Assembly: GCF_013911755.1 (NCBI RefSeq)
Contig: NZ_JACESP010000015.1
Coordinates: 1-64,000, forward strand
Direction: 5' to 3'
Length of the DNA stretch: 64,000 bases
Source: Sphingosinicella sp.
GTDB lineage: Bacteria > Pseudomonadota > Alphaproteobacteria > Sphingomonadales > Sphingomonadaceae
Shown: positions 48,256 through 64,000 of the stretch, piece by piece
Position numbering within the stretch: position 1 is the stretch's first letter
Layout of the letters: each line of letters starts with the position of its first letter
Position numbers and translations under genes: made by a program
Notes under the pieces: model-generated
Told to the model about the DNA's origin: nothing
The model's input: only the letters and a program-made list of their open reading frames with translations
Databases searched by the model: none

Positions 48256-49464
48256 TTAGCGGCGAGGAAAGCGTGCCTTCATAATGCGTGTCAGCTGATC
48301 GTGCGGAATGCCGTAAACCTTCACGTTGTTCGCGCCCGTCATGGTTTCGGACGCCACGAGCTGGTTCACAAGCGCTTCTTCCGTGGCGTGTACGACACCC
48401 GAAAACAGCGCGTTCATTGTCTCGCTGTCGGTATCGTTGATCATCGCCGGCAGGCGCGGAGGCCCGCCGAGCGGGATGATGTGACTCGTCGAGAAGGCGA
48501 GCGCGAATTCGCCGGAGAGCGCCCCGGCCGTGCTTCCGTTGCGGCCGACGCCGAGCGCGGCGCGGCGGGCAAGCCGCTCCAGCTGGTGCGGCATCAGCGG
48601 TGCGTCGGTTGCGATCACGATCAGCAGCGAGTTCTTGTCCTGCGGCTTTCCCGCATCGGGGCCGAGAACCGCCACGCCGTTCACCTCAGGCCATGCGCCC
48701 TTGATCTCCTTGCCGATCGGCACACCCGCGATGCGCAGATCGTCGCGGCTTCCGTGGTTCGCCTGCACCAGCACACCGACGGTATAACGTTTGTCGCCTG
48801 CCGAAACGACGCGCGACGATGTGCCGATGCCGCCCTTGAAGGTGTAGGCGATCATGCCCGTGCCGCCGCCGACATTGCCCTCGGCGACCGGGCCGCCTTT
48901 GGCGCCGTCGAGCGCTGCGAACACGTGGTCGCGCGTAAGGCCGTGCCCGAAGACGTCGTTGAGCCGGCTGTCGAGCGTTTCGCCGACGACCGGGAGCACC
49001 CGAGAGAACAGCGCCTCTTCCGGCACCTTGCTGATCGACCAGTCCATCAGGCTCTGATGCACGAGGCCGACGTTGCCGGAACCGGTGAGCGCGATCGGCC
49101 CCAGGAACTGCCCGATCTCGTCGACGAGATGCATTCCGGTCCATTCGCCGGTGCCGTTGATCACGGCCCTGCCCGCGGCCACACCGTCGATGCTGCCCTT
49201 GCCGAGCGGGTGAATGATCGTCACGCCGGTGCGGTAAGGCCCCTTGCCGATCACCATCGGCCCATCGCCTGAAATCACGGTGGTGTGGCCGACTTCGACT
49301 CCCGCGACGTCCGTTATGGCATTCAGCGGCCCCGGCGTACCTTCGAACGGAACCCCCAGATCGCGGGCACGCGGCCCCGCGATCGACGCCGTCGCGGCGA
49401 TCGAAACGATCAGCGCCGCCAGCAGCGGCAACGCACCGGACCACAGTCTTTGCATCGAAGTCAT
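48256..49464 (-). CDS. bapA: Beta-peptidyl aminopeptidase BapA (P1 family, DmpA type)
   Basis: A 402-residue precursor of the P1 (DmpA) Ntn-hydrolase family, which removes N-terminal beta-amino acids from beta- and mixed peptides. A signal peptide (residues about 1-29, ending SIAG) indicates periplasmic export. The precursor self-cleaves to free the nucleophile: here the site is Asn278-Ser279 in QDKNSLLIVIATDAPLMPHQ. Both total length and cleavage numbering agree with what I recall of Sphingosinicella BapA. Conserved ITDVAGVEVGH, HPLGKG, NGTGEWTG, GLVHQSLMDW and GNVGGGTGM segments are present. It overlaps the GPH transporter stop by four bases (ATGA) and lies in the operon MaoC, ligase, transporter, bapA, controlled from the promoter facing tetR. 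Expression by this arrangement would be inducible. Confidence 0.93.
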   Translation of the reverse strand: MTSMQRLWSGALPLLAALIVSIAATASIAGPRARDLGVPFEGTPGPLNAITDVAGVEVGHTTVISGDGPMVIGKGPYRTGVTIIHPLGKGSIDGVAAGRAVINGTGEWTGMHLVDEIGQFLGPIALTGSGNVGLVHQSLMDWSISKVPEEALFSRVLPVVGETLDSRLNDVFGHGLTRDHVFAALDGAKGGPVAEGNVGGGTGMIAYTFKGGIGTSSRVVSAGDKRYTVGVLVQANHGSRDDLRIAGVPIGKEIKGAWPEVNGVAVLGPDAGKPQDKNSLLIVIATDAPLMPHQLERLARRAALGVGRNGSTAGALSGEFALAFSTSHIIPLGGPPRLPAMINDTDSETMNALFSGVVHATEEALVNQLVASETMTGANNVKVYGIPHDQLTRIMKARFPRR

Positions 49465-50837
49465 GGCGTGATCTTTCCTGTCAAAAGGGTTTCATAGACG
49501 CGGCGGAACCGCAGGAGCAGCAGCAGGCTCGCCGCCACAAGCAGCGAGGGCAGAATTGCAAACGCAACACGAATACCTGTGAGCGCCGACTCCGGCTGCG
49601 TCACCACCGTTCCGCTCGATGCGACGAAGCTTGTCCACGAGAGTACGGCGCCCGTCGCCAATCCGCCGAGCGCAAGGCCGAGTTTTTCGCCTGCCGTCCA
49701 CAGCCCCGTGAACATGCCCTGCCGGTGGATACCCGTGGCGCGCGCGTCGGCATCGAGAACGTCGGGCAGCAGCGCGAAGGGAAACAGCTGCTGCCCAGCG
49801 AAGGCGAGACCCATCAGGCAGACCTGCGCATAGAGAAGCGCATCGGGCGTTTCGCTGTCGCAGAACCAGAGTCCCGCAGTCGCAAGCACGAGCAGCACGC
49901 TCGATCCGATATAGGCGCGCACCTTGCCCACGCTTCGGGAAATGCGCACCCAGAGCGGCATGGCAACGATCGCCGAGACGTTGAGCGCAACGAACAGCAG
50001 CGTCACGGTCATCCCCGAACCCTCGCGGATATGCACGGCATAATAAGGCAAAGCGCCCGAGAAACAGCCGAGCCCCGCCAGTTGCAGCAGATAGGTGACG
50101 AGGAGCAGCAGAAACGGCTTGCAGGCCGCCGCCTGCCGAAGCCCCTGCCAGAACTGGAAATCCGCCGAAACCGATGCCGCCGCCCCCAGCCTGCGCGTCG
50201 CCGCCACGGGTACGAGCATTGCTATGCCGCACACGATTCCAATCGTCAGCGCCATCGCGGCGTAACCGGCACGCCCGCCGCCCGCGAGATCGACAAGGAA
50301 CGGCGCGCCTGCGCCGCCGAGCAGGATGCCGGCCATCGCAAATCCCATGCGGAACGACATCAATGTCGTGCGTTCCTCCGGGCTGCGAGATATCTCGGCG
50401 GGCATCGCGATATAAGGCACCGAGAACACCGCGTAAGCCGTGGCGCAGGCCATGTACGCGGCGGTCACGTAGACGAAGCTCTCGAGCGGCGTTTCGAACG
50501 CGGGGACCGAAAACAGCATCACGAAGAAAAGGCTCATCGTGATGCCGCCAACCAGCATATAGGGCCTCCGCCGACCCCAGCGGCTCTGCGTGCGGTCCGA
50601 AAACATCCCGATCATGGGGTCGATCAGCACGTCCCAGAACTTCGGGATGAACACGGTAATGGCGGCGAGCGCCGGCGAAATGCCGAGAACGCTTGTCATG
50701 AAATAGAGCAGCAGCACGCTCGGCACGGTGGAGAACACGCCGGTTCCAAGCGAGCCGACGCCAAACGCCGCCATGGTGCCGATGGAGAGGCCGCGAGCGT
50801 CCACCGATGCCACCGCGCCGCCCATGGCCTTGTTCAC
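49461..50837 (-). CDS. GPH-type (MelB-like) MFS transporter
   Basis: A 458-residue sodium- or proton-coupled transporter of the GPH/MelB branch, with about 12 membrane segments. KFWDVLIDPMIGMFSDRTQSRWGRRRPYML carries the family's N-terminal Asp/Arg motif. It overlaps the ligase gene upstream and bapA downstream (GTGA/ATGA), so it is translated with them. GTG 50837 is used; ATG 50825 is an alternative. Because BapA acts in the periplasm, a plausible cargo is the released amino acid or short peptide; sugars are the commoner cargo of this family. Confidence 0.88.
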   Translation of the reverse strand: MNKAMGGAVASVDARGLSIGTMAAFGVGSLGTGVFSTVPSVLLLYFMTSVLGISPALAAITVFIPKFWDVLIDPMIGMFSDRTQSRWGRRRPYMLVGGITMSLFFVMLFSVPAFETPLESFVYVTAAYMACATAYAVFSVPYIAMPAEISRSPEERTTLMSFRMGFAMAGILLGGAGAPFLVDLAGGGRAGYAAMALTIGIVCGIAMLVPVAATRRLGAAASVSADFQFWQGLRQAAACKPFLLLLVTYLLQLAGLGCFSGALPYYAVHIREGSGMTVTLLFVALNVSAIVAMPLWVRISRSVGKVRAYIGSSVLLVLATAGLWFCDSETPDALLYAQVCLMGLAFAGQQLFPFALLPDVLDADARATGIHRQGMFTGLWTAGEKLGLALGGLATGAVLSWTSFVASSGTVVTQPESALTGIRVAFAILPSLLVAASLLLLLRFRRVYETLLTGKITP

Positions 50838-52450
50838 CGCGCGCCGCTCAACTGCCGCACTTCTTCGCGAAGCGCGTGCTTGTCCACCTTGCCGATCGGC
50901 AGCAGCGGCAGCGCCTCGCGGACCAGGAAGGTCTTGGGCACCTTGTAGTTCGCAAGCCGCTCCGCAGCGAATGCGCGGAGCGTAGCCTCGTCGATCACCG
51001 CGCCCGGCGCGGGAATCACGAATGCCCAGCCGACCTCGTCATAACGCGGATCGGCCACCGGGATCACGGCCGCCGCCGCGACGCCCGGATGCTCTTCGAG
51101 CGCGAGTTCGACCTCGCGCGGATAAACGTTGTAACCGCCCGACTTGAACATCTCTACGCTGCGCCCGACGAAGCGCCAGTTGCCAGCCGGCAGCAACTCC
51201 ACCTGATCGCCGGTGCGGAACCAGCCGTCCGCCGTGAAGGCCGCGGCAGTCGCCTCGGGATTGTTGAAATAGCCGAGCATCACGCCCGGCCCCTTGATCT
51301 GCACTTCGCCGATACCGTGCTCGGGAACGGGCTCGCCCCCCTCATCGACGACACGATAAGCGTTGTGGTGATCGTGGTGCCCGATCGTTTCCGTCAAAAG
51401 CGCGAAATCCGCGTCTGGCGGATTGACGCTGTTGATCGACCCGCCTTCGGTGAGCCCATAGTGCAGCGAGAAGAAATAGCCCTTCCCCTCCAGCCGGCGG
51501 AGCAGCGGCGCAGGCATCGGCGCGCCGCCCCATGCGATCACCGATACGCTGGAGAGGTCGCGCCGCGCGGCATCGGGATGATCGAACACCGCCTGATGCA
51601 TCAGCGGCAGCCCGCCGAGGATCGTGATCTTCTCGCGCTCCGTCGTCTCCAGAATTCCGGCTGGATCGAAGCTTTCCATGAACACGATCGTGCCGCCGTC
51701 GATCAGGCAGTTTCCACACACGTCGGACTGGCAGCCGACATGGTTGGTCGGCAGGTTGCAGATCACGCGGTGCCCGGCGCGCAGACGTTCGCGGCCCACG
51801 AACGATTCCGAAAGCGCCCGGTACGAATGAAAAAAGCTGTCGTGCGAGAGCACGGCCCCCTTGGGCTTTCCGGTCGACCCCGAGGTGTAGACGATACTCA
51901 CGGGATCGCGGCGCGAGGTGCGATTCAATCGGCGCGCGACATCATCAAGGGCATCGCCGTCCGCGAGAAACGCATCGAGCGATCGGCCCATCCCATTCAG
52001 AACACCGCCGATGGTGACGAGGCTGACGCCCGCGACGACATCGCCCGCAAGATCTCGGAGGTCATCGTCATAGCGGCGTCCCGCCGGATCTTCGAGAATC
52101 GAAACCAGCAGTTTCGGCTGACAGTCCCCGAGCACATGGCGCATTTCCTCGCGCCTGTATTTCGGGTTCACGCCCACCCACACGGCACCCGCACGCATCG
52201 CGCCAAGCAGCATCAGCATGAACTCGGGGCGCGGCGTCACGATCATGGCGACACGGTCGCCAACCGCCACGCCCGCAGCGATCAGCGCGCGCGCATAGCG
52301 ATCGATCTCGCGGTCGAAATCCGCATAAGACAAGCGCTGATCGCCGAAGATGATCGCCTCGCGATCAGGAACCGTCCGCGCATAGGCGGCAACTGCGTCC
52401 GGCAGCCTCTCGATACTGGCGACAAGCGCCGGACCGTGCGGCGCCTGCAT
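50834..52450 (-). CDS. AMP-forming acyl-CoA ligase of the bapA operon
   Basis: A 538-residue ANL-superfamily ligase (PVSIVYTSGSTGKPKGAVLSH phosphate loop; YGLTEGG; GWFRTGDQVEL; GRSVEMFKSGGYNVYPREVE; ending PIGKVDKHALREE with the adenylation Lys). It activates a carboxylic acid to its CoA ester. ATG 52450 overlaps the MaoC stop by one base (TGATG), so translation is coupled. A fatty or beta-amino acid side-chain acid is a possible substrate given the BapA context; this is not shown by the sequence. Confidence 0.9.
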   Translation of the reverse strand: MQAPHGPALVASIERLPDAVAAYARTVPDREAIIFGDQRLSYADFDREIDRYARALIAAGVAVGDRVAMIVTPRPEFMLMLLGAMRAGAVWVGVNPKYRREEMRHVLGDCQPKLLVSILEDPAGRRYDDDLRDLAGDVVAGVSLVTIGGVLNGMGRSLDAFLADGDALDDVARRLNRTSRRDPVSIVYTSGSTGKPKGAVLSHDSFFHSYRALSESFVGRERLRAGHRVICNLPTNHVGCQSDVCGNCLIDGGTIVFMESFDPAGILETTEREKITILGGLPLMHQAVFDHPDAARRDLSSVSVIAWGGAPMPAPLLRRLEGKGYFFSLHYGLTEGGSINSVNPPDADFALLTETIGHHDHHNAYRVVDEGGEPVPEHGIGEVQIKGPGVMLGYFNNPEATAAAFTADGWFRTGDQVELLPAGNWRFVGRSVEMFKSGGYNVYPREVELALEEHPGVAAAAVIPVADPRYDEVGWAFVIPAPGAVIDEATLRAFAAERLANYKVPKTFLVREALPLLPIGKVDKHALREEVRQLSGAR

Positions 52451-52920
52451 CAGGCCGCCTCTCTCGAAATCAGGCCGATCCATTCGGCTACGAGAGCCGG
52501 ACGCTCCTGCCCCTCGATCTCGATCGTGTTCTCGGAGGTGACAAGATAGGCGCCATCCTCGCGCTGCTCCACGCTCTTGATCACCATGCGGTTGCGGAAA
52601 CGCGCGTTCACCGGAACCGGCGAAATGAAACGCACCCGGTTGAGCCCATAATTCAGATCATAGCCGGCGACGCCCCCGCCGTGGCGATAACGGATCGGCG
52701 AGCAGAGATGGCTGAGCATCGACAGCGTCTGAAACCCGAACAATATGGTCTGGCCGAACGGGCTGTGTTCGCGCGCATAGTCGGGATCCATGTGCATGGG
52801 ATCGATGTCGCGCGTCACCCTGCCGAAGGCGTCGATCTCGTCCTGCGAGAGCGATATCCAGTCGCTGACAAGTATCTCCTGCCCGACGAGCGACGACAGG
52901 GTTTCGACATCATATTCCAT
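52450..52920 (-). CDS. MaoC-like hotdog hydratase, first gene of the bapA operon
   Basis: A 156-residue single-domain MaoC protein (VGQEILVSDWISLSQDEIDAFGRVTRDIDPMHMDPDYAREHSPFGQTILFGFQTLSML). The DIDPMHMDP/A-E-HSPFG stretch is the hydratase site of the family. ATG 52920 gives the normal start; the in-frame extension to 52989 has no homologous sequence. A near-perfect palindrome lies 114 bases upstream, shared with divergent tetR. It probably hydrates an enoyl-CoA derived from the acid the ligase activates. Confidence 0.87.
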   Translation of the reverse strand: MEYDVETLSSLVGQEILVSDWISLSQDEIDAFGRVTRDIDPMHMDPDYAREHSPFGQTILFGFQTLSMLSHLCSPIRYRHGGGVAGYDLNYGLNRVRFISPVPVNARFRNRMVIKSVEQREDGAYLVTSENTIEIEGQERPALVAEWIGLISREAA

Positions 52921-53033: not shown

Positions 53034-53049
53034 TGAATTTAAATTCAAG
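53034..53049. promoter_or_regulatory. Probable TetR operator A, TTGAATTTAAATTCAA
   Basis: Perfect 16-base palindrome in the 221-base divergent region between the MaoC/bapA operon (ATG 52920) and tetR (ATG 53142). Nearly the same sequence, one position shifted or replaced at most five times in 21, recurs at 56086, 56262 and 62440. Extended 21-base matches to this site are 17, 16 (reverse strand) and 18. Confidence 0.75.
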
Positions 53050-53141
53050 TTTATAAATTGCCGTACGAGGCTATGATTAGAAATTGGTTTTAAGGCCGGT
53101 ATCCGGTATCACGGGCGCAATCGAGGTTGATCAAGAGCGCA

Positions 53142-53897
53142 ATGGCAACAAAGAAAAAAGCCGTGGGCGAAAGGCCTGCCGTCGCACCGCTGGGCCGCAA
53201 GGAACGTCGCAACGCCGTCAGCAAGAAACCTGCCGCACCACAGACGCAGCGCGGCAATCAGACGCGCGAGAAGCTGAAGGAAGCGACCGTGCGCGTGCTG
53301 GAGCGGATCGGCTACCGCGCCATGCGCCTTTCCGACATCGCATCCGAAGCCGGCGTCAACGTCAGCCTCCTCTACCACTATTTTTCGGGCAAGGCGGACC
53401 TCACCCACGAGATCCTTGTTGAACTGCTCGATAGGCAGCGTTTCGACGACCTCTCCGGCATGCCGCCGACCAGTGACCCGTTCGATTCGATCGTGCGCGC
53501 CAACAAGGTCATGGTTTCCACCTATTCGCGCACGCCAGGCCTGATGCGGTGCCTGCTCCACTTCGACGAGGAGGAGGCCGAGTTCTCCGAACTCTATCGC
53601 AAGGTGAGCGCGGACTGGAGCCTCAAGATCGCGAAGGACATCGCAAAGCGATGCCCCGGCGTGGCACTGGGCGAGGAGCAGCGGTTGATGATCGCCTATG
53701 CCCTCGGCGGCATGGTCGACAACTTCCTGTTCGAGCTTTACGTCGATCGGAATCCGACGCTGGTGAAGGCCTTCTCGTCGCCGGAGGATGTGGCGCATTT
53801 CCTCGCGATTCTCTGGTACAGGGCGATTTACCTCGCAAATCCGCCCGCCGAGCAGTTGAAGGGCTATGAGGGCTTCACAAGCCTCAAGATGGCCTGA
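53142..53897 (+). CDS. TetR-family regulator, presumed master of the bapA regulon
   Basis: A 251-residue TetR regulator with a basic, low-complexity N-tail (ATKKKAVGERPAV to KKPAAPQTQRGNQ) before the helix-turn-helix at about residues 46-92 (REKLKEATVRVLERIGYRAMRLSDIASEAGVNVSLLYHYFSGKADL). The ligand domain follows to the end. ATG 53142 is preceded by AAGAG; TTG 53127 is an alternative. Divergent from the MaoC-ligase-transporter-bapA operon, with four candidate palindromic operators nearby. It probably represses these genes until a CoA ester or peptide-derived ligand binds. Confidence 0.9.
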   Translation: MATKKKAVGERPAVAPLGRKERRNAVSKKPAAPQTQRGNQTREKLKEATVRVLERIGYRAMRLSDIASEAGVNVSLLYHYFSGKADLTHEILVELLDRQRFDDLSGMPPTSDPFDSIVRANKVMVSTYSRTPGLMRCLLHFDEEEAEFSELYRKVSADWSLKIAKDIAKRCPGVALGEEQRLMIAYALGGMVDNFLFELYVDRNPTLVKAFSSPEDVAHFLAILWYRAIYLANPPAEQLKGYEGFTSLKMA

Positions 53898-53906
53898 ACC
53901 AGGTCG

Positions 53907-55250
53907 TCAGTTTGCGGCTGCCGCGCGTGGGCGCGCGGCGCGCAGCAGGTCGATCGCCCAAATAGCGGGATTATGCCCCACCTGATTGAGCGTTCCGCCG
54001 AGGCTGATCCCCGTGCCCGGTTCATAGAGCATGATCGCGCCCCAGAATCCGGTGTGTCCGAAATACGAGATGCCGTCGGGCGTCGTCAGTCGTGACACGC
54101 CAAGCCCACGTTCCACCGCGATATCGCCGCGCATCTGGCGCCACTGAGGCGACGTCATCAGCGCCAGCGTTTCCTTTTTCTTGAACAGCCGCCCCTCGCC
54201 GAGCGCGCGGATGAAGCGGTTAAGTTCGTCGGCCGTTGAGACGACACCGCCGCCCGCCCAATCGAAGGAAATGTTGAAGCGCCCGGTGCGGCCGGCGAAA
54301 TCCCCGATATAGAAATCCGCAGCGTTGCCCTCATAGGGCGTGGTCGCTGGCTTGGTCGCATATTCGAGATAGGTGTGCTTCAGCCCGAGCGGATCGAACA
54401 ATCGCTTACGGTAGGCCTCATGCAGCGTGGCGCCGGTGAGCTTTTCGATCACCAGGCCGAGAATGATGTAGCCGGTATCGCTGTAGTGATACCCCTGCCC
54501 CGGCGCGAACAGTCCGTTCGTCGCGCCGCCGTTATAGCTGAGGTAGAAATTGAGGATGCCGGCCTGCGGATCATCCGGCCGTGACGGGTCCCACGGCGCC
54601 CATGTCTTTCCGGTTGCCAGCGTCGCGATATCGCATCCCGGCGTCTCGAGGCACTTGCGATGCGTGCCGAGCACGCCGAGCAGCACGCCGCCGAAGGACT
54701 CCGGCGCCGCCTGCCCCTGGCTTTGTTCCGACGTGAGCTTTGCGTCGTCCATGAAGACGTCGCGCATACCCGACTGGTGCGCCAGCAATTGCCGGATTGT
54801 CAGCCCGGCGCCATAGCTGCGCCCTTCAAACGTCATCAGGCGGTCGAGGACCGCGGGCGCGAGCACGCCGAGCGAACCGAGCGTCGTTTCGATCCCCTCC
54901 GGGCCAAGCTTCCCCTCTTCGGCGAGTTGCAGAATCACCGTCGCCGTCATCGTTTTGGTCACGCTCGCGATCGGGAACTGGTCGTGTGCCGTAATCGCGG
55001 CCGTACCGCCTTCGCGCGCGGGGCCGACGCCCTTTGCATAATAGAGCTTTTGCGCGGGATCCTCCACGACCACCGCCGCATTGTGCATGGCATCAGCGGG
55101 TGCGGGCGAAGACGATGCCAGCGGCAAGGCCTGCATCACGGCATCGAGGCGTGCCGCCTCGGGCGCCGCCGGTGCCGTGCCATGCGCGCACCCGGCCGCC
55201 ATCAGCATTAAAGCGCCAGCGATCGCGCAACCGGCTTTCCGTACCATCAT
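53907..55250 (-). CDS. Serine hydrolase, class C beta-lactamase/S12 family (possible lipoprotein)
   Basis: A 447-residue S12-type serine hydrolase. Nucleophile motif S96-V-T-K99 (IASVTKTM), tyrosine motif YHYSDTGY and the third motif FGHTGFWG are intact, so it should be active. The signal peptide ends in AGC (Cys21), consistent with a lipoprotein although the -3 residue is Ala rather than Leu. Family members include D-aminopeptidases, DD-carboxypeptidases and esterases, so a role on D-amino-acid peptides is possible. It lies at the end of the enoyl-CoA hydratase operon (ATGA overlap). Confidence 0.88.
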   Translation of the reverse strand: MMVRKAGCAIAGALMLMAAGCAHGTAPAAPEAARLDAVMQALPLASSSPAPADAMHNAAVVVEDPAQKLYYAKGVGPAREGGTAAITAHDQFPIASVTKTMTATVILQLAEEGKLGPEGIETTLGSLGVLAPAVLDRLMTFEGRSYGAGLTIRQLLAHQSGMRDVFMDDAKLTSEQSQGQAAPESFGGVLLGVLGTHRKCLETPGCDIATLATGKTWAPWDPSRPDDPQAGILNFYLSYNGGATNGLFAPGQGYHYSDTGYIILGLVIEKLTGATLHEAYRKRLFDPLGLKHTYLEYATKPATTPYEGNAADFYIGDFAGRTGRFNISFDWAGGGVVSTADELNRFIRALGEGRLFKKKETLALMTSPQWRQMRGDIAVERGLGVSRLTTPDGISYFGHTGFWGAIMLYEPGTGISLGGTLNQVGHNPAIWAIDLLRAARPRAAAAN

Positions 55251-56068
55251 AGAGCCTCCGAACCTCGCACCTTGAATCCCGCCACACGGGCCGTCACTTC
55301 AGCATCGAGCAGGCTCGCGGCGAGGTTGATTGTTTCCTCCGCCATCGCCGCCTCGATACGGTCACGCTCAAGCAGGTTGATCGCCCGTTTCAGGTTGCGT
55401 ACCGCCTTCGCCGGGCGCGACGCAATGCGCTGAGCGAGTGCGAATGCCGCTTCGAGATGCTGTCCGGTCGGCGCGATCTCGGTCACGAGCCCCGCCTCAT
55501 TCAGCGCCTTCCCGTCCAGATGTTCGCCACCCATGATCCATCTGAACGCCCGCTGCGGGCCGATCAGACGCGGCAGCAGCGCGGTCACGCCGCCGCTCAC
55601 GAACATGCCCCATTCGATCTCGGGGAAAAACGCGCGCGCTTCCTCGGACCAGATCACCGCGTCGCAGTTGATCGCCCATTCGAAGCCGCCGCCCACGGCC
55701 CAACCGTGCACGGCCGCGATCACCGGCTTTACGCCGAACATGATCTCCCGGCTCACCTGCTGCATCACGTCCACACGTGCGCGCATCGTCATTTCGTCCA
55801 CGTCCTCCGGCGCCTCGTGCGCGGTCAGGTCGTCGCCTGCGCAGAAGGCCTTGCCGCTCCCGTGAAGCACAATCGCCGCCGTCGCCTCGTCGGCATTGGC
55901 TTCGCGCAGCGCAGCGATGAACGCGCGGACCATCGGTTCGTTGATCGCATTGAGGCACGCGGGCCGATTGAGCGTGATGACGCTGGCCCGGCCCTGACGG
56001 GACAGAAGGACTTCCGGCGATTCAGTCAATTCTCGAACCCTCAAACACGACGCGTGCGGCGCCCTCAT
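55247..56068 (-). CDS. Enoyl-CoA hydratase/isomerase family protein
   Basis: A 273-residue crotonase-fold protein. Oxyanion-hole segments GSGKAFCAGDDLTAHE and AAVHGWAVGGGFEWAINCD, and the acid region FFPEIEWGMF, are present, so both catalytic acidic positions look occupied. ATG 56068 was preferred because longer starts run through the AT-rich operator region. A palindrome-related site (56086-56101) lies 18 bases upstream, so the gene appears controlled by TetR. Co-transcribed with a serine hydrolase; together they may process an acyl-CoA from peptide breakdown. Confidence 0.87.
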   Translation of the reverse strand: MRAPHASCLRVRELTESPEVLLSRQGRASVITLNRPACLNAINEPMVRAFIAALREANADEATAAIVLHGSGKAFCAGDDLTAHEAPEDVDEMTMRARVDVMQQVSREIMFGVKPVIAAVHGWAVGGGFEWAINCDAVIWSEEARAFFPEIEWGMFVSGGVTALLPRLIGPQRAFRWIMGGEHLDGKALNEAGLVTEIAPTGQHLEAAFALAQRIASRPAKAVRNLKRAINLLERDRIEAAMAEETINLAASLLDAEVTARVAGFKVRGSEAL

Positions 56069-56085
56069 TCTTTCGCTATTTGATT

Positions 56086-56101
56086 TTAAATTTAATTTCA
56101 A
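56086..56101. promoter_or_regulatory. Probable TetR operator B, TTAAATTTAATTTCAA
   Basis: Extended 21-base match to operator A is 17 of 21 (ends TTCAAGTAAA against TTCAAGTTTA). It lies 18 bases upstream of the enoyl-CoA hydratase start, close enough to block ribosome access or transcription. Confidence 0.6.
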
Positions 56102-56261
56102 GTAAAGCTGCGGATAGTGATGGCGTCGTTTGGAGGGCGAGCCGGTTGGGAGGCGGCCCTGCACGCGGCCCATGCACCGCTATTGGGAGGGGCAGGTGTT
56201 TTGCTGAACTGGAATCAGGGGAAGGCTCCGGGCCTCCCGGTCACGAAGACCAACGCAAAAC

Positions 56262-56277
56262 TTGAATATGAATTTAT
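56262..56277. promoter_or_regulatory. Probable TetR operator C, TTGAATATGAATTTAT
   Basis: Matches operator A on the opposite strand at 16 of 21 extended positions (AAACTTGAAT kept). It lies 34 bases upstream of the TonB receptor at 56311. Confidence 0.6.
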
Positions 56278-56310
56278 GTTCTATCAATCGATCTGAAAAA
56301 GGGGGAAGGA

Positions 56311-58527
56311 ATGTCGAAATCGGTTAACCCTGCACGTAACCTGTCCGTGCGCCAGCTGATGCGATCGGCCGCGGTGCTCGCGCTGCTCTCGCCCGTACCC
56401 GCGCTGGCGCAGGAAGACGCCTATGGCATCGAGATCATCACCGTCACCGCCCAGAAGCGCACGGAAAGCGTGCAGGACGTGCCGATCGCCATCACCGCAT
56501 ACTCCGAAGCTGGCCTCACCGCGCGCGGCATCGACGGGCTAGGCGATCTCGCACAGAATACCCCGAGCCTCGGCTTCGGCAACTTTTCCGATCTCAAGCT
56601 CTCCCCCATCGCGCTGCGCGGCATTTCCGCAAGCTCGGGCTCGGCCGGGCAAGACCCCGCCGTCGGCGTCTATGTCGACGAGGTGTTCATGGGCGGCGGC
56701 GTCGGCGCCAATATCGACATGGTCGATGTGGAGCGCGTCGAGGTTCTGCGCGGTCCGCAGGGCACGCTCTTCGGCCGCAATACCGTCGGCGGCGTGATCA
56801 GTATCACCACGAAGAAGCCGACCGACGAATTCGAAGGCTATGTCTCGGCTGGCTACGGCGACTACGACGCGGTCAACCTGCGCGGCGCCGTCAGCGGACC
56901 GATCATTGCCGACAAGCTGCTCGCCCGCATCTCGGGGCAATACGAGGACCGCAAAGGCTTCACGCGCAACGAGATCGACGGAACGCGCGGCGACGATTCC
57001 CACACATGGAGCCTGCGCGGCCAGCTGCTGATGCGGCCTACCGAGAATGCCGAGTTCGTGCTTACCGGCGAATATCGGAAGGTTGACCAGCGATCCAAGT
57101 ATTTCGAAACCCTGGCCTACAACCCCGACCAGTTGCTCCCGCAGCTGCTCGAACTGTTCGAACTTCCGCTCAACACCGACCCCTTCGACCGCCGCGTCTA
57201 TTCGGACCTCGCGACGAAGGAAACGCTGAAGGCGTGGGCCGTCTCGTTCAACGCGAATATCGATTTCGGCGGCGTCGATTTCACCAGCATCACGTCCTAC
57301 CGCGAGCATGAATACGACAACATCGGCGACACCGACATGTCGCCGCTGCGCTGGCTCTACGACGGCGACCCCGAAGACGTCTGGCGCTTCAGCCAGGAGC
57401 TGCGCCTCGCCTCGAAGGGCGACACGGCGCTCAGCTGGATCGCGGGCCTCTATTATTTCCACCAGACGAGCCGCAACCTCAGCTTCGTTCGCCTCGGACA
57501 GGATCTCGCCGATCTGCTCGAGGTGCCCGCGATGGACATCGGGTCCGACGCGGACATGAAACTCGATAGCTACGCGGCTTACGCGAACATCTCCTACAAG
57601 ATCACCGATCAGCTCGAAGCGACGCTCGGCGGCCGCTACACCTACGAAAAGAAGTCGATCCTCTATTCGCAGTTCGATCCGCTCGCGCTCCTCGGCGGTC
57701 AGGTGGACGGTCTGCAGGGCAAGGATACGTGGAAGGCGTTCACGCCCAGCTTCAACATCCGCTACCACTTCAACCCGTCGGCAATGGCCTATGCGACCGT
57801 CAGCCGCGGCTTCAAGAGTGGCGGCTTCAACGACGCGCTCGGCGACGCGAACGGCATCAGCTACGATCCCGAATATATCTGGAACTACGAGATCGGCGCG
57901 AAGATGAGCCTCCTCGAAAACCGCCTTCTCGTGAACGTCGCGGCGTTCGCGATGGAATGGACCGACATCCAGATTTCGGCGGACGATCCGAATACGCTCC
58001 CCTTCGATCCGCGCACCAGCAACGCCGGCAAGGCGCACTCGCGCGGTGTCGAGCTCGAAGTCACAGCCGTGCCGATCCCGGCGCTCGAACTCGGCTTCAA
58101 TCTCGCGCTCACCGATGCGGAATATGACGAAGGCACGGTACCCACAGCGCCCGGCAGCCCGGAAATCCCGCTCGCCGACCTCCCGCGCGCGCCGGAAACC
58201 CGCTTTGGCGTAAACGCGCAGTACACCGTGCCGCTGGGCGAAATGTCGCTCACCCTGCGCGGCGACTATCTCTACGAGCGCGGCACCGACCTGCTGCCCA
58301 TCAAGGATCCAGCAGCCCGCGTCGGCACCGTCGGGCTTCTTAACGGCCGCATCACGCTCGCCGGCGAGGAAGACCGCTGGTCGATCGCGCTCTGGGGCAA
58401 GAACCTTACCGACAAGACCTACAAGACCCGTCTGTTCGACCTCTCGAACCAGGCGCTTGTGGGGCAGCAGCTCATCGTGCTCGGCGCACCGCGCACGTTC
58501 GGCGTGGAGGCGCGATTCAACTTCTAG
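56311..58527 (+). CDS. TonB-dependent receptor of the tetR/bapA region
   Basis: A 738-residue TonB-dependent receptor. A signal peptide (AAVLALLSPVPALAQ), the plug start IEIITVTAQKRTESVQDVPIAITAYS, EVLRGPQGTLFGRNTVGGVI and a barrel ending TFGVEARFNF are visible. GGGGGAAGGA precedes ATG 56311. Shorter than the receptors at 2921 and 36911 by about 110 residues. It carries operator C upstream and is followed by a serine hydrolase, so it probably imports peptide-like substrates into the periplasm where BapA and the hydrolases act. Confidence 0.94.
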   Translation: MSKSVNPARNLSVRQLMRSAAVLALLSPVPALAQEDAYGIEIITVTAQKRTESVQDVPIAITAYSEAGLTARGIDGLGDLAQNTPSLGFGNFSDLKLSPIALRGISASSGSAGQDPAVGVYVDEVFMGGGVGANIDMVDVERVEVLRGPQGTLFGRNTVGGVISITTKKPTDEFEGYVSAGYGDYDAVNLRGAVSGPIIADKLLARISGQYEDRKGFTRNEIDGTRGDDSHTWSLRGQLLMRPTENAEFVLTGEYRKVDQRSKYFETLAYNPDQLLPQLLELFELPLNTDPFDRRVYSDLATKETLKAWAVSFNANIDFGGVDFTSITSYREHEYDNIGDTDMSPLRWLYDGDPEDVWRFSQELRLASKGDTALSWIAGLYYFHQTSRNLSFVRLGQDLADLLEVPAMDIGSDADMKLDSYAAYANISYKITDQLEATLGGRYTYEKKSILYSQFDPLALLGGQVDGLQGKDTWKAFTPSFNIRYHFNPSAMAYATVSRGFKSGGFNDALGDANGISYDPEYIWNYEIGAKMSLLENRLLVNVAAFAMEWTDIQISADDPNTLPFDPRTSNAGKAHSRGVELEVTAVPIPALELGFNLALTDAEYDEGTVPTAPGSPEIPLADLPRAPETRFGVNAQYTVPLGEMSLTLRGDYLYERGTDLLPIKDPAARVGTVGLLNGRITLAGEEDRWSIALWGKNLTDKTYKTRLFDLSNQALVGQQLIVLGAPRTFGVEARFNF

Positions 58528-58544
58528 GATCACGCCCGCAAATC

Positions 58545-58601
58545 GTGCCATCATCGGGGAGACGCCGCGACGGGACCGCGGCGGCTCGGCGATGGTGGCA
58601 C
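58545..58601 (+). other. Long intercistronic stem-loop after TonB receptor
   Basis: GTGCCATCATCG (58545-58556) pairs with CGATGGTGGCAC (58590-58601), with one G-U pair, and encloses a second stem CGCCGCG/CGCGGCG (58563-58569 with 58577-58583). No T-run follows, so it is not a standard terminator. A processing or attenuation element between the receptor and the serine hydrolase is possible. Confidence 0.55.
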
Positions 58602-58637
58602 CACTATGAAAGGACCATCTGAGTGAAGGAAGGTGTC

Positions 58638-60107
58638 ATGCACGAACTCATCTGTTCATCGAAGGCTCCGCGCGGCGAAGGCTGGCGCAGGGGCGTGCTC
58701 CCGCTTCTGGTCAGCGTCGCGCTGCTCGGCACCGATGCATTGCATTCGGAGGTGAAGGCCGAAGCGCTCGCGCCCGAAACCGCGTCCCGTATTGATGCAA
58801 TCATCGCAAACCGCATGGAAGCGGCCCCCTTCCCCGGGCTCGCAATCGCGATCGAACGCAAGGGCGAACTCGTTTATGCGAAGGGGTTCGGCATGGCCGA
58901 TCTGGAGCAGGACGTGCCGGTCACGGTGGATACCGTCTTCCCGATCGGATCGATCACGAAATCCTTCACCGGCCTTGCGCTCGCGCAGCTTGCTGTGGAC
59001 GGCAAGGTTTCGCTGGACGAGACCGCGGGCCATTATCTGCCCGATCTGCCGGAGCCCGCGCGCAGCGTGAAGGTCCGCAATCTTCTCGATCACACCGGCG
59101 GCCTTGTGAACTACACCGACCTGCCGGAGTTTCCCTACAACTCCCGGAAGGAATTCACGCGCGAGGAGATGGTCGGCTACTTCGCGAGCAAGCCGCTGAT
59201 GTTCAAGCCGGGAACGGCGTGGAGCTATTCGAACTCCGGCACTTATCTGATCGGCCTCATCATCGAGAAGGTTTCGGGCGTGACGTACGACGAATACGTC
59301 CGCACGCACATTCTCGAACCGTTCGGCATGTCGAAGTCGCTCTATACGGACTGGACCCGTCTCGTGCCGCACCGCGCGCAAGGCTACAAAAAGGGCAAGA
59401 ACGGCTGGCAGAATGCACTGCAATATGATCCCATCGTTCCATTCTCAGCCGGCGCGATCATGTCGACCGTCGGCGATCTTCTGAAATACCGCCGCGGTGT
59501 GTTCGCGTCGGACAAGACCAGCCAGGCCGTGCGCGATCTCATTCTGAAGCGCGACAAGCTCGAGGACGGAACCGAGCTTCTTTACACGCTCGGCTGCCTC
59601 GTCACGACGAACTTCGAAGGCCACCGCAAGATATCCCACGCGGGCGATATCTACGGCTTCTCGGCATACTACGCTTATTATCCCGATGACGACGTGGTCA
59701 TCACCATCACCACCAACAATCAGGGCGGTGCTTTTCCGCCGCTCAGCGTCGAACAGAAGATCGCGCGCGAGATACTTGGCGTGCCGCAGCCGGTCGTCAA
59801 AGCATTGCCGGTTCCCGCCGATCTCGGCACCCGCGTCTCGGGCGATTACTATTTCGCGCCCTACCGCTTCGGGCCGGAGGTGCACGGCTTCTCCTTCAAG
59901 GACGGCCAGCTCTACCTGAATTTCGGTGGAACCAAATCGGGCGGCCCTGTGCTGCCGCTGCTCTACCAGGGCGCAAACCGCTTCGTGTCGGCCGTCGACG
60001 ACGAGCACAACGTCGTCTTCAAACCCGGGAAACGCGGCAAACCGGCAACGCTGACGATGGAGTATTACGGCGGCAGGTTCAGCGCACAGCAGACCCCCGC
60101 GAAGTAA
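58638..60107 (+). CDS. Serine hydrolase, S12 (class C beta-lactamase-like) family
   Basis: A 489-residue S12 serine hydrolase. S105-I-T-K108 (IGSITKSF), Y197-S-N199 (WSYSNSG) and HAGDIYG form the active-site motifs. The start shows a possible N-terminal membrane or export segment (LPLLVSVALLGTDAL). The C-terminal third, from about residue 385, is a beta domain of the kind found in D-aminopeptidases and related enzymes. ATG 58638 follows GGAAGG closely; GTG 58623 is an alternative. It is about 110 bases after the TonB receptor. Likely a periplasmic peptidase or esterase on D-configured substrates. Confidence 0.88.
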   Translation: MHELICSSKAPRGEGWRRGVLPLLVSVALLGTDALHSEVKAEALAPETASRIDAIIANRMEAAPFPGLAIAIERKGELVYAKGFGMADLEQDVPVTVDTVFPIGSITKSFTGLALAQLAVDGKVSLDETAGHYLPDLPEPARSVKVRNLLDHTGGLVNYTDLPEFPYNSRKEFTREEMVGYFASKPLMFKPGTAWSYSNSGTYLIGLIIEKVSGVTYDEYVRTHILEPFGMSKSLYTDWTRLVPHRAQGYKKGKNGWQNALQYDPIVPFSAGAIMSTVGDLLKYRRGVFASDKTSQAVRDLILKRDKLEDGTELLYTLGCLVTTNFEGHRKISHAGDIYGFSAYYAYYPDDDVVITITTNNQGGAFPPLSVEQKIAREILGVPQPVVKALPVPADLGTRVSGDYYFAPYRFGPEVHGFSFKDGQLYLNFGGTKSGGPVLPLLYQGANRFVSAVDDEHNVVFKPGKRGKPATLTMEYYGGRFSAQQTPAK

Positions 60108-60129
60108 TCAGGCCAAGTACAAAAAAGAA

Positions 60130-60163
60130 GAGGCCGGGGAAACAATTCCCCGGCCTCCTTTTT
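60130..60163. terminator. Bidirectional rho-independent terminator
   Basis: A perfect 12-base stem GAGGCCGGGGAA/TTCCCCGGCCTC (60130-60157) with loop ACAA, followed by CTTTTT on the plus strand and preceded by ACAAAAAAGAAG, which gives a U-run on the minus strand. It sits between convergent genes ending at 60107 and 60182, so it can serve both. Confidence 0.93.
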
Positions 60164-60181
60164 GGTCTGACGGTTCAGCCC

Positions 60182-62329
60182 CTAGAACTTGAAGCGTGCC
60201 TCAACGCCATACGTGCGCGGCGCGGAGAGAGACTGCACGGCCTGCCCGCCGATAATCACGCCATCGTCGCGGTAGAGCGCGTAGTCCTTGTTCGTCAGGT
60301 TGCGGCCCCACAGGAACAGCGACCAGCCCTGTTCGCTGCCGATACCGATACGCCCGTTGAGCAGCGTCACATCGCCTTGCGAATAGTCGTTGTCCGGCCC
60401 GAAGAAGATCCGGCTGCGATGCGTCAGATCACCGCGCAGCGTCAGCGAGAGCGTGTCGGTAAGTGGCGCCTCGTATTGCGCGCCCACGCTGATGTTGTGC
60501 TTCGGCGCCTTCACCATCGTGTTGCCGGTGAAGTCGTCGCCACCCGGCGTGGCGCCTGCATAATCGAGGAACTTCGCATCGAGATAACTGTAGTTCACCG
60601 TAACGTCGAAGCCGTTAACGGGCCGTGCCGTGAGTTCGAGTTCGACACCCTTGCTGCGCGCGCGCGCAGCGTTCGAGGTCTGGAATTGCGGCAGACCGCC
60701 CACCAGCTCGAGCTGGTTCACCTGCAGGTCCTTGTAACGCAGATAATATGCCGAGGCGTTGAAACGCAGACGGTTGTCGAGCAGATCGGATTTCAGGCCA
60801 ATCTCATAGCTTGTCACGAATTCCGGTTCATACTCGGCATCGTCCGTGGGCGTCACAGAAAACACGTTGTAACCGCCCGATTTGAAGCCCCGGCTGACGG
60901 TCGCGTAGGTCAGAACCTTGTCGTTCCACTTGTAATTGAGGCTGAGCGACGGAGAGAAATCATCCTCCGATCGGCCGAACCGACGTTCCGGCATCGTTGC
61001 AAGCAGCAATCCGAACGGATCGCCGTTCTGGCTGTGAATGACGTCCTTCTTTTCCCACGTATAGCGCAGTCCGGCAGTAATGCTGAACTGGTCCGTCACG
61101 CGATAGACGGCTTGACCGAATCCGGCGATGCTTTCGGATTTAATGGTCGCGAAAATGTTTCCGGTCACGGCCTCGGGATAGATGCCGAGGTCCGCGCCGA
61201 TCACCGCAGCCGAATTTGTCTCAAGCCGCTGGTGGAAATAATAGACACCGAACACATACGTCAGCGGGCCGCTGTCAGGCGAGGCAAAACGCAGTTCCTG
61301 GCTGAACTGGTTCTGGTCCTCGCTGATACCCGAAGCGAGCAGGTCGAGCGCCGTGTAGTCATTGTCCGCGAGGTTATACCACTGGAACTCACGGTAAGCC
61401 GTGATGCTCGTCAGCTTCCCGCCGCCGAGCGACCAGTTGATCTCGCCAGAGGCGCCGAACGTGTCGCGGTTCTGAACCGTGTCCCTGTTCTGCACAACCT
61501 GACGGTCCCAACCGCTCGCGTCCGCAAGCGGTGTTCCGGTAAGATCGCCGTTGTCGGTGATGTCGATGGACCCGGAATTGGTCCGATCACGCGACGCATC
61601 GACACGCGCAACGAGTTCGAAATCCTCGTTCTCGCTGTAAACCGCCGTCAGACGGCCCGAAAGCGAATCGACGTCGTCGAGGTCGGTTCCGGTCAGCAGG
61701 TTTTTCACCAGCCCGTCGCGGCGGTCGATGCCGCCCGAAACGCCGACATAGAACTTGCCCGGAACCACCGGCCCGCTGATCGAGGCGCTTGCCCGGATGG
61801 CTTCATAATTGCCGTAGCTCGCGCTGATGTCGCCGCGAAGTTCGTCGCCAGGCTTCCTCGTGATGAAGTTGATCGCGCCAGCGATCGTATTCTTGCCGTA
61901 AAGCGTGCCCTGCGGCCCGCGCAGCACCTCGATGCGTTCAAGGTCATAGAGGCTGTTGTTGATCGTCGTCGGGCGGCCCATGTAGACGCCGTCGACGTAA
62001 ACGCCGACACCCTGATCGACGCCGGGGTTGTTCGTTTCCGAAACGATACCGCGAATCGAGATCGACGTGCCGCGCAGCTCGCGCATGTCGATGTAGACGC
62101 TGGGTAGCGAGGTCGCGAAATCCTCGATACGGCCGATGCCCTGATCCCGGATCGCTTCCGCCGACAGCGCGGAAACCGAAATCGGCACATCCTGGATCGA
62201 TTCCGCCCGCTTCTGCGCGGTGACGATGATCTCTTCCAGCTCGGCGGACTGTGCCAGAGCGGGCGCGGCCACGCCGGCACCGCCCACGCAAACCGCCGAA
62301 CACAAAAGCGCGCGCTTCAAAACATGCAT
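60182..62329 (-). CDS. TonB-dependent receptor of the tetR/bapA region, divergent from DUF1611 gene
   Basis: A 715-residue TonB-dependent receptor with signal peptide (ALLCSAVCVGGAGVAAPALAQ), LEEIIVTAQKRAESIQDVPISVSALS, GVGVYVDGVYMGRPTTINNSL, EVLRGPQGTLYGKNTIAGAI and a C-terminal YGVEARFKF. Start ATG 62329 is preceded by GGGGAAA. Operator D (62440) lies about 111 bases upstream. It differs enough from the receptor at 56311 not to be a duplicate. It probably has a different but related ligand. Confidence 0.94.
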   Translation of the reverse strand: MHVLKRALLCSAVCVGGAGVAAPALAQSAELEEIIVTAQKRAESIQDVPISVSALSAEAIRDQGIGRIEDFATSLPSVYIDMRELRGTSISIRGIVSETNNPGVDQGVGVYVDGVYMGRPTTINNSLYDLERIEVLRGPQGTLYGKNTIAGAINFITRKPGDELRGDISASYGNYEAIRASASISGPVVPGKFYVGVSGGIDRRDGLVKNLLTGTDLDDVDSLSGRLTAVYSENEDFELVARVDASRDRTNSGSIDITDNGDLTGTPLADASGWDRQVVQNRDTVQNRDTFGASGEINWSLGGGKLTSITAYREFQWYNLADNDYTALDLLASGISEDQNQFSQELRFASPDSGPLTYVFGVYYFHQRLETNSAAVIGADLGIYPEAVTGNIFATIKSESIAGFGQAVYRVTDQFSITAGLRYTWEKKDVIHSQNGDPFGLLLATMPERRFGRSEDDFSPSLSLNYKWNDKVLTYATVSRGFKSGGYNVFSVTPTDDAEYEPEFVTSYEIGLKSDLLDNRLRFNASAYYLRYKDLQVNQLELVGGLPQFQTSNAARARSKGVELELTARPVNGFDVTVNYSYLDAKFLDYAGATPGGDDFTGNTMVKAPKHNISVGAQYEAPLTDTLSLTLRGDLTHRSRIFFGPDNDYSQGDVTLLNGRIGIGSEQGWSLFLWGRNLTNKDYALYRDDGVIIGGQAVQSLSAPRTYGVEARFKF

Positions 62330-62439
62330 TTCGTTTCCCCTTTTTCTCGCGCGCCGATTCCGGCCCACGCATTCCCGTCACCAAGCTCCGCCGTATGCCT
62401 GTGCTGGCACCGTCGGTACGATCAGGATCATTCTTCATT

Positions 62440-62455
62440 TTGAAATTGAATTCAA
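62440..62455. promoter_or_regulatory. Probable TetR operator D, TTGAAATTGAATTCAA
   Basis: Extended 21-base match to operator A is 18 of 21 (both end TTCAAGTT). It lies between divergent starts 62329 and 62531, 111 and 75 bases away, so it can control both genes. Confidence 0.7.
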
Positions 62456-62530
62456 GTTGATTATTGTCGAATAAGGAACATCGTTTCCAAAAGATCAACA
62501 AACGCACCGCTGAAGGACACTGGACAGCCC

Positions 62531-63544
62531 ATGGTAGACCTGCCGTCACCCTATCTCCTCTTTCTGGGTGACACCCGGAGCGAGACCTATGCCAAGACCG
62601 CATTCGGCCTGCGCGACTGGGCGCCTGACGCGGTGATCGGCGAGTATGCCATGCCGGAAGCGACGGTGACCCTGGGACTCGAAAGGCTCACGCCCACTGC
62701 CGCGGCGTCGCGCGGCGCGCGTGCGCTGCTTCTCGGCATTGCGCCGGTCGGCGGCGCCATCCCGGCCCACTGGCTGCCCGAGCTCATCGCCGCGCTGGAA
62801 GCCGGGCTCGACATCGTCGCCGGGCTCCACCAGCGGCTTGCAGACATCCCGGAGCTGGCAGCGACCGCGCGACGCCTTGGCCGCACGTTGTTCGACGTCC
62901 GTCACCCAACCGTCAGCTTCAGCGCGGGCACCGGTCTCCCCCGCTCGGGCAAGCGACTGCTTACCGTGGGCACGGACTGCGCACTCGGCAAGAAATACAC
63001 GGCGCTTGCCATTGCGAAGCGGTGGCAGGCACTCGGCGGCAATGCGGATTTCCGGGCAACGGGGCAGACCGGCATCATGATCGCCGGTCACGGCGTCGCC
63101 ATCGATGCCGTCGTCGCCGACTTCATCGCAGGCGCAGCCGAATGGCTGAGCCCGGCGAACGCGCCCGATCATTGGGACATCATCGAGGGCCAGGGCTCGC
63201 TTTATCACCCCGCCTTCGCGGGCGTGACGCTCGGCCTCCTGCACGGCGCGCAGCCCGACCTGTTCGTGCTCTGCCACGATCCGACGCGCGCCGCGATCTA
63301 CGGCTACCCACACATTCCCATGCCCGACCTTGCCGAAGCGATCGCGCTTTACACGCAGCTCGGACGGCTGACGAACCCGGCCATCGCCTGCGCGGGGATC
63401 AGCATCAACAGTTCGAAGATGGGCGAGGCTGATCGCGCCGACTGGATCGCGCGGACAGCAGACCGGCTCGGCCTGCCCGTCGCCGATCCGCTGCGCGACG
63501 GCGTCGACGGGTTCATCCAGAAGATGCAAGCCGTCAGGGCATGA
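62531..63544 (+). CDS. DUF1611 protein (DgcN-like)
   Basis: A 337-residue DUF1611 protein. The central P-loop-like stretch RLLTVGTDCALGKKYTALAIAKRW, followed by RATGQTGIMIAG, ending NSSKM and LPVADPLRDG, are family hallmarks. DgcN of D-glutamate catabolism (D-glutamate N-acetyltransferase) belongs here, normally beside an enolase-family partner, DgcA. No such partner is within the window. Its shared operator and peptide-uptake neighbours make D-amino-acid processing plausible. Start ATG 62531 is the only sensible one. Confidence 0.88.
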   Translation: MVDLPSPYLLFLGDTRSETYAKTAFGLRDWAPDAVIGEYAMPEATVTLGLERLTPTAAASRGARALLLGIAPVGGAIPAHWLPELIAALEAGLDIVAGLHQRLADIPELAATARRLGRTLFDVRHPTVSFSAGTGLPRSGKRLLTVGTDCALGKKYTALAIAKRWQALGGNADFRATGQTGIMIAGHGVAIDAVVADFIAGAAEWLSPANAPDHWDIIEGQGSLYHPAFAGVTLGLLHGAQPDLFVLCHDPTRAAIYGYPHIPMPDLAEAIALYTQLGRLTNPAIACAGISINSSKMGEADRADWIARTADRLGLPVADPLRDGVDGFIQKMQAVRA

Positions 63545-64000
63545 CCCCGTGCCGCATCGCGGGCTGCGCGGACGCCGTCCGCCGCGTCAGCGTCTGATCG
63601 AGCACCCGGATCAGGCGCGGGCGTGTCTCGCGCGGGTCAATGACGTCGTCGATGTTCAGCTTCGACGCCGCGTGGAATGGCCCGGCGCAGCGCGCGTAGT
63701 TCGCCGTCAGGTCGCGGATCAGCGCCTGCGGGTCTTCCGCGGACTCGATCTCCTTCGAATGCGCCGCCAGCACCGATCCGCCGGGCGGCAGCGAACCGAA
63801 ATCCGCCGTCGGCCAGGCAAGAATCATCGCCTGCTGTGCCTCCGCGCCGCCCATCGCCACCGCACCGAAGCCGAATGCCTTGCGAATGACGACGGTAATG
63901 CGCGGCACCGCCGACCATGAGATCGCATAGCTGAGCGCAAGCCCTGCGCGCAGCGTCCCCTCCTGCTCCGCCTTCGGCCCCGGCATCACGCCCGGCACGT
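63534..64000 (-). CDS. Acyl-CoA carboxylase carboxyltransferase subunit, C-terminal part cut by window edge
   Basis: At least 154 residues of the C-terminus of a biotin-dependent carboxyltransferase (propionyl-CoA/methylcrotonyl-CoA carboxylase beta type). Typical segments are ALSYAISWSAVPRITVVIRKAFGFGAVAMGG, ILAWPTADFGSLPPGGSV and the end IDDVIDPRETRPRLIRVLDQTL. The beginning lies beyond 64000. It is convergent with the DUF1611 gene, overlapping 11 bases. It may carboxylate an acyl-CoA of the nearby catabolic genes. Confidence 0.88.
   Translation of the reverse strand, partial: VPGVMPGPKAEQEGTLRAGLALSYAISWSAVPRITVVIRKAFGFGAVAMGGAEAQQAMILAWPTADFGSLPPGGSVLAAHSKEIESAEDPQALIRDLTANYARCAGPFHAASKLNIDDVIDPRETRPRLIRVLDQTLTRRTASAQPAMRHGVMP

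Follow-up and report, generated by a model that had tools for sequence, protein, structure and literature searches.

Introduction

What a β-peptidyl aminopeptidase does for its host, and which genes are switched on with it, are the questions raised by the 64,000-nucleotide stretch of Sphingosinicella sp. DNA analysed here (‘the window’; GC content 64.5%). BapA is an enzyme for β-peptides and carnosine, and the window encodes it close to a tetR gene, two TonB-dependent receptors and several hydrolases. A first-pass annotation, drawn from the letters of the window, had proposed that four AT-rich palindromes join these genes into one TetR regulon. Examination of the window, of the whole genome to which it belongs (G000; 3,633,286 bases) and of related genomes argues for an autoregulated regulon in which this TetR acts on these operators (probability roughly 0.78, judged from sequence comparison). 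In the open-access literature searched, no report of this regulon was found, and none on the regulation or operon of bapA, the latter as judged by titles and abstract openings; a natural role for BapA is not stated in the available parts of the open-access BapA literature examined.

Proposed operator sites in the window

The four sites (S1–S4, Table 1) are closely alike. Compared as 21-mers, pairs of sites agree at 15–18 positions and each site agrees with its best partner at 16–18, as the first-pass annotation had counted. Relative to the 16-bp query pattern TTGAANTYRANTTCAA, S4 has no mismatch, S2 one (register 56086) or two (register 56080) and S3 three; at ≤1 mismatch the pattern recovers S1, S2, S4 and nothing else in the window. 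Outside the four sites there is one 2-mismatch place (58085), and 3-mismatch places, with the same mismatch count as S3, lie at 4035, 45063, 53078 and 60630. A matrix built from three sites was scored over the window, excluding the zone within 30 bp of the four sites, and for 4/4 left-out sites no rival position scored as high, upholding the claim that the window holds no comparable site.

The claim that the sites lie upstream of genes holds outright for S1, S3 and S4, which are intergenic, and conditionally for S2. The latter is upstream of the gene for an enoyl-CoA hydratase/isomerase family protein (ECH) if translation begins at ATG 56068 or at a more internal codon (TTG at 56044 or 56029; 55933 according to the gene finder), while longer in-frame starts at 56101, 56164 and 56173 would place S2 within the reading frame. 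Divergent units, and tetR among them, have sites close to where they begin, as would fit an autoregulated repressor. Promoter-like hexamers adjoin S1 (53050–53077) and overlie S4 (62440–62467), and these count for little, since four such matches were found with 2.2 expected by chance.

Table 1. Operators and genes of the proposed regulon (window positions unless a contig is named)
Feature	Position	Strand	Site sequence or family match	Remarks
S1 operator	53033-53048		TTGAATTTAAATTCAA	perfect 16-bp palindrome; between divergent MaoC operon and tetR
S2 operator	56080-56101		TTGATTTTAAATTTAATTTCAA	two overlapping registers, 56080 and 56086; upstream of ECH–hydrolase operon
S3 operator, weak	56262-56283		TTGAATATGAATTTAT at 56262, overlapping ATGAATTTATGTTCTA at 56268	before TonB receptor 1
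S4 operator	62440-62455		TTGAAATTGAATTCAA	between divergent TonB receptor 2 and DUF1611 genes
S5 operator	C7:65131-65146			beyond window edge; intergenic, ~40 bp before carboxyltransferase gene
tetR	53142..53897	+	TetR_N PF00440, 1.2e-12, 47.8 bits (cut-off 24)	ATG 53142; TTG 53127 also in frame
MaoC-like hot-dog hydratase/lyase	52450..52920	-	PF01575, 1.3e-16; solved relative 2c2i, 1.1e-25	first gene of bapA operon
AMP-forming acyl-CoA ligase	50834..52483	-	PF00501, 9.7e-78	
GPH/MFS_2 symporter	49461..50837	-	PF13347, 9.8e-88	
bapA, β-peptidyl aminopeptidase (S58/P1)	48256..49464	-	PF03576, 5.8e-99	
PLP-dependent Ser/Thr-dehydratase-like	47196..48197	-	PALP, 4.7e-71	58 bp after bapA
ECH, enoyl-CoA hydratase/isomerase family	55247..56068	-	PF00378, 1e-42	start uncertain
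BLa, serine hydrolase (β-lactamase fold)	53907..55250	-	PF00144, 2.4e-41	
TonB-dependent receptor 1	56311..58527	+	PF00593/PF07715	
BLb, serine hydrolase	58638..60107	+	PF00144, 3.5e-69	after TonB receptor 1
TonB-dependent receptor 2	60182..62329	-	Pfam	
DUF1611 protein, DgcN-like	62531..63544	+	PF07755, 2.6e-71	
Carboxyltransferase (propionyl-CoA carboxylase β-like)	63534..65090	-		3′ part in window (63534..64000)

Distribution across the genome

Genome-wide counts were made with IUPAC patterns allowing few mismatches, rather than with a matrix. At ≤1 mismatch TTGAANTYRANTTCAA occurs at seven places, 4/7 of which fall within this 12-kb cluster: S1, S2, S4 and a fifth site, S5. Of the other three, C5:49771 is immediately upstream of a tetR paralogue, and C15:17151 precedes a D-aminoacylase-like gene, for which the best match among solved structures is D-aminoacylase 1m7j (8.8e-75). 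The third, C23:222103 (one mismatch), lies inside a gene, as does the 2-mismatch place at 58085, and both were dropped as chance. According to the first-pass annotation its proposal would fail if sites of equal quality were common at unrelated genes; what was found outside the cluster is one TetR paralogue, one D-aminoacylase-like gene and one intragenic match, and the proposal stands. With two mismatches allowed, 27 forward matches compare with 12 for a reversed control, and these look to be mostly background; four that lie outside C7 and C5 are on C45, C33, C44 and C2. The odds of clustering in this genome are partly circular, the pattern having been drawn from its own sites; S5 and the held-out genus described below are free of that circularity.

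The D-aminoacylase-like gene may belong to the regulon, on mixed evidence. Its site is exact in this genome and has one mismatch in Sphingosinicella microcystinivorans DSM 19791 (G001, of the same genus group), and in a third genus, considered below, the gene neighbours bapA and has, at its 5′ end, a copy of the operator typical of that genus, overlapping the start chosen by the gene finder.

Conservation and co-inheritance

The sites stand out from the DNA around them. Across G000, G001 and G004, 84/86 columns of S1–S5 are invariant, compared with 364/664 of the remaining columns in those intergenic stretches (Fisher p 5e-18). S2 and S4 each lie within a 31-bp run that is invariant in the three genomes, the S4 run also holding the promoter-like match that overlies it. 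S1 is intact in four aligned genomes, including G003, whose contig ends within tetR, and also in G061, a metagenome-assembled genome of another genus that served as a held-out test.

Across genomes, operator sites and tetR are inherited together. Among 298 genomes of the family, TetR orthologues at ≥82% identity and BapA orthologues at ≥82% identity were found in the same five (G000, G001, G003, G004 and G061), the TetR orthologues sharing 82–93% identity, and S1 precedes tetR in all five. G002 and G005 have neither orthologue, their best BapA relatives being at 47–48%. Exact matches to a one-sided operator pattern, ACTTGAAWTNRANTT, number five in G000 (four in the cluster), four in G001, four in G004, one in G003 and two in G061 (all in the cluster in each of these four); G002 has one, elsewhere in the genome, and G005, without this tetR, has none. 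Nine family genomes without an orthologous tetR gave 12 places for the 16-bp pattern at ≤1 mismatch, two of them exact, in ~39 Mb (from rounded genome sizes). The TonB receptor 1 gene of G001 also has a 1-mismatch match inside it.

The held-out genus repeats the arrangement. The TetR of G061 is 82% identical to that of the window, and 4/5 places at ≤1 mismatch in that genome fall within the orthologous cluster on C74 (the fifth is C1:3634). The cluster sites stand ahead of tetR/MaoC, ECH, an M81 (MlrC-family) metallopeptidase gene and bapA. In this genome genes for an M55 D-aminopeptidase and a P450 separate bapA from the MaoC–ligase–GPH genes, and bapA has a site of its own, ~115 bp before the codon aligned with the window BapA start and ~60 bp before the gene-finder start. 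The cluster also has a D-serine-dehydratase-like gene. The G061 form of S3, ATGAATTTATGTTCAA (L112:12111), is a complete TGA-N8-TCA, so that the register of S3 in the window is probably 56268, 6 bp past the position first annotated (56262).

These results bear on the explanation that the sites are chance palindrome-like words in AT-rich promoter DNA, with no regulon behind them. The sites are indeed AT-rich in a 64.5% GC window, and two genomes without the tetR have an exact match; against this are set conservation far above the flanks, the clustering in held-out G061 and the site before the displaced bapA. On the footprint conservation, the clustering of matches and the leave-one-out result, a chance origin was rejected as very improbable.

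Paralogous modules

The genome has two more TetR modules, one on C5 (TonB, PF00144, MaoC; L050 G000:C5:46919-52326) and one on C15 (TonB, amidase, class III aminotransferase, PF00144, CoA ligase, thiolase; L049 G000:C15:53219-63907). The system is thus one of a small TetR–TonB–hydrolase–CoA family and ordinary in kind. The C5 sites are TGA-N8-TCA too, in six aligned genomes. Upstream of the C15 tetR (L049 8179-8212), repeated TCAAGT/ACTTGA halves are conserved between two species and are likely the operator of the C15 TetR.

Real operators might serve a paralogous TetR (C5 or C15) or a shared set, making this a case of network co-regulation rather than the work of this TetR alone. The paralogues share 34–38% identity with it, the C5 TetR has the same YHYF recognition-helix core as well as its own TGA-N8-TCA sites, and S3 resembles the C5 sites by eye. 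What makes this explanation improbable is G005, which has kept the C5 TetR and lacks this tetR: it has no exact one-sided match, and its sole 16-bp match at ≤1 mismatch is a C5-type site. That S1 precedes this tetR wherever the gene was found points the same way.

Genes under the proposed operators

The TetR could be assigned to no named subfamily: 17/17 NCBIfam models (BetI, KstR, ScbR, FadR and others) fell far below cut-off, the best at 37.6 against 150 bits. A structure model from three sequences (helices only, mean pLDDT 39.5, pTM 0.24) was too poor to use.

The MaoC, ligase, GPH and bapA genes overlap by 4–34 bp and form one unit; the ECH and BLa genes overlap by 4. The window BapA is the same enzyme as BapA of Sphingosinicella xenopeptidilytica (PDB 3n2w), with homology over the full length (E 1.6e-229 across all 373 chain residues). 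Residue 30 of the bapA frame aligns with the residue at which the solved chain begins, as expected if a signal peptide is cleaved off, and BapA is probably secreted. In the available part of a paper concerned with catalysis, BapA/3N5I is likewise assigned to S. xenopeptidilytica (PMC9570944).

The dehydratase-like gene at 47196..48197 is possibly part of the bapA operon; it also adjoins bapA in G004 and G003, and in G001 what stands there is only a 30% match. Two tandem PLP Ser/Thr-dehydratase-like genes follow bapA in the window (46141–47082 and 47196–48197), with a convergent AraC-type regulator gene at 45110–46132. Between the convergent BLb and TonB receptor 2 genes, a terminator-like hairpin lies at 60128–60159 on both strands.

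Relatives beyond the genus

Two genomes of a third genus, G166 and G214, encode BapA at 71–72% identity beside TonB receptor, CoA ligase, MaoC, TetR, PF00144, penicillin-acylase-like and D-aminoacylase-like genes; GPH and HTH-cupin genes of this cluster were matched in G214 and not in G166. The Sphingosinicella operator had no match in either genome. In its place, on G214:C39 and G166:C23, there is a repeated word of the form TGAYRYYNRYRTCA. Both genomes have it ahead of tetR/MaoC, ahead of a PF00144 gene and at the 5′ end of the D-aminoacylase-like gene; G166 has it before bapA as well, and G214 before a TonB receptor. Copies before relatives of TonB receptor 2 are poorer. Exact matches to AANCTGAYRYYNRYRTCA were all in the bapA cluster (G166, four rows at three places; G214, four) and none occurred in six other genomes, this absence being the sole test because the pattern was drawn from third-genus sites; the G166 D-aminoacylase site has one mismatch to it. 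The bapA-side regulator of this genus is 29–33% identical to the present TetR clade, has a different recognition helix and falls on a separate branch (11 rows, with a long-branch warning). The simplest reading is that the gene set was kept and the switch changed.

Outside the family, among 396 genomes of the order, the nearest TetRs share 46–49% identity over the matched part, and 44–45% in a further comparison. Their neighbours gave no match to the BapA set save a weak GPH relative (26%) in G300, so the regulon does not extend to the family of the 44–45% relatives. In G306 and G312, of one genus of another family, TTGAACGCTATTTCAA, a TTGAA-N6-TTCAA with two mismatches, lies ~50–60 bp before tetR (L158:9650, L159:9963), a placement that favours the link between TetR and operator; G300 has a 1-mismatch match between genes, 3.5 kb from tetR (L157:13759). 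This suggests that the TetR clade may read TTGAA-N6-TTCAA more widely than the peptide genes occur.

Points against the regulon

Several observations weigh against an autoregulated regulon of the extent proposed. S3 is weak, with three mismatches, and support for it therefore comes from conservation (16/16 columns in three genomes) and the complete form in G061: the site annotated at 56262 survives as a conserved element, with its register probably shifted, and its link to TonB receptor 1 is the weakest of the regulon. The DUF1611 protein falls below the NCBIfam DgcN cut-off (453.9 against 480 bits), and G004 has no DUF1611 gene at its place (L059 7716-11733) while retaining both neighbouring operators, so that this gene is not essential to the programme. 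The targets first listed are supported, with DUF1611 dispensable, and S5 adds the carboxyltransferase gene to them. The D-aminoacylase site is absent in G003, G004 and G005, though G003 and G004 have the tetR. Exact pattern matches occur without the tetR, one each in G016 and G254; the C5 paralogue has TGA-N8-TCA sites of its own, so cross-binding is possible; and the most distant TetR relatives have other neighbours. Finally, ordinary hydratases may also lack a proline considered below for ECH.

Proposed route

The arrangement suggests the following course. TetR (53142–53897) would repress its own gene and no fewer than four further transcription units through near-palindromic T-TGAA-N6-TTCA-A operators near their starts, and a substrate intermediate, perhaps an acyl- or β-aminoacyl-CoA, would probably release it. 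The two TonB receptors may take in a hydrophobic or bulky peptide, which secreted BapA and the PF00144 hydrolases would cut at β- and D-linked residues in the periplasm, the GPH symporter importing the fragments. The CoA ligase could then activate the freed β-amino or carboxylic acid, an enzyme of the MaoC or enoyl-CoA hydratase fold could remove ammonia or add water, and the propionyl-CoA-carboxylase-like subunit and dehydratases may finish the route. ECH is a possible candidate β-aminoacyl-CoA ammonia lyase: in two alignments both catalytic Glu are kept and the loop Pro position is not proline, a criterion that is not specific.

That a peptide route is the purpose of the regulon is somewhat favoured, and the first-pass idea of one programme for unusual peptides gained strength from the M55, M81 and D-serine-dehydratase-like genes of the G061 cluster. 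An explanation that accepts the regulon and disputes its purpose alone would give it an ordinary substrate (N-acyl compounds, esters, fatty acids), with bapA as a passenger. CoA ligase, MaoC, ECH, carboxylase and PF00144 hydrolases are general enzymes, and the two paralogous TetR modules carry similar ones, whereas BapA relatives in this genome (E up to 1e-90) are limited to C7 and C45. This is nevertheless rather doubtful, since in G061, and in G166 of the third genus, a bapA gene that stands apart is preceded by a site of its own, and since the M55, M81 and D-serine-dehydratase-like genes join the cluster in G061. The C45 relative is a second S58 peptidase gene (G000:C45:125757-126887, 46% to BapA), with no operator at ≤2 mismatches in the surrounding 16 kb.

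A more specific form of the peptide route is put forward tentatively, as a whole. In it, the natural role of BapA would be dedicated scavenging of non-ribosomal peptides, cyanobacterial or similar, that contain β- and D-amino acids; the β-amino acids freed by BapA would be taken into the cell, converted to CoA thioesters and stripped of ammonia by a lyase of the MaoC or crotonase fold; and in the third genus much of this gene set would have come under a different TetR, whose new operator has the same TGA-N8-TCA geometry.

Relation to known systems

KstR and KstR2 govern autoregulated TetR catabolic regulons, and the layout here is like theirs: the repressor gene is divergently oriented and has an operator of its own, the sites are palindromic, and the regulon is local and includes acyl-CoA genes. 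The window TetR has weak similarity to KstR/KstR2, reaching no NCBIfam TetR cut-off, and its operator differs from that of KstR.

A proven route for β-valine in Pseudomonas sp. SBV1 runs through BvaA and BvaB, a CoA ligase and an ECH-like ammonia lyase, according to the available part of the source (PMC4619459). The window likewise pairs a CoA ligase with an enoyl-CoA-hydratase-like protein. In that same part BvaA is said to resemble phenylacetate-CoA ligases, while the window ligase comes closest to the long-chain and FadD3-family models without reaching their cut-offs. As for the DUF1611 protein, dgcN is credited with a key role in a route that racemises acidic D-amino acids (PMC12363236).

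The mlr microcystin-degradation cluster of S. microcystinivorans B-9 has the order mlrCADBEF (PMC6256522). Its toolkit runs parallel to the one described here, with a PF00144 hydrolase, a transporter and a D-aminoacylase-like gene, and the mlr-like locus of G001 has a TonB receptor; the M81 (MlrC-family) gene behind this operator in G061 is a further parallel. Identity with the mlr pathway was rejected: G000 has no match to the M81 model, nor, with E up to 1e-10, to the MlrA-like protein that G001 encodes, and the G001 mlr-like locus (L147, assigned by gene order and family) lies elsewhere in that genome with no operator match at ≤1 mismatch. Apart from that locus, G001 has an M81 gene close to an S58 peptidase gene (43% to BapA; L148 8369-12800, G001:C1).

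Significance

The third genus offers what appears to be a case of a kept gene set with a differing regulator and operator. For Sphingosinicella, the regulon would give BapA a likely natural job and names its likely partners, namely receptors, symporter, ligase and lyase candidates; it also provides a testable class of inducer and operators that may be used to find further members.

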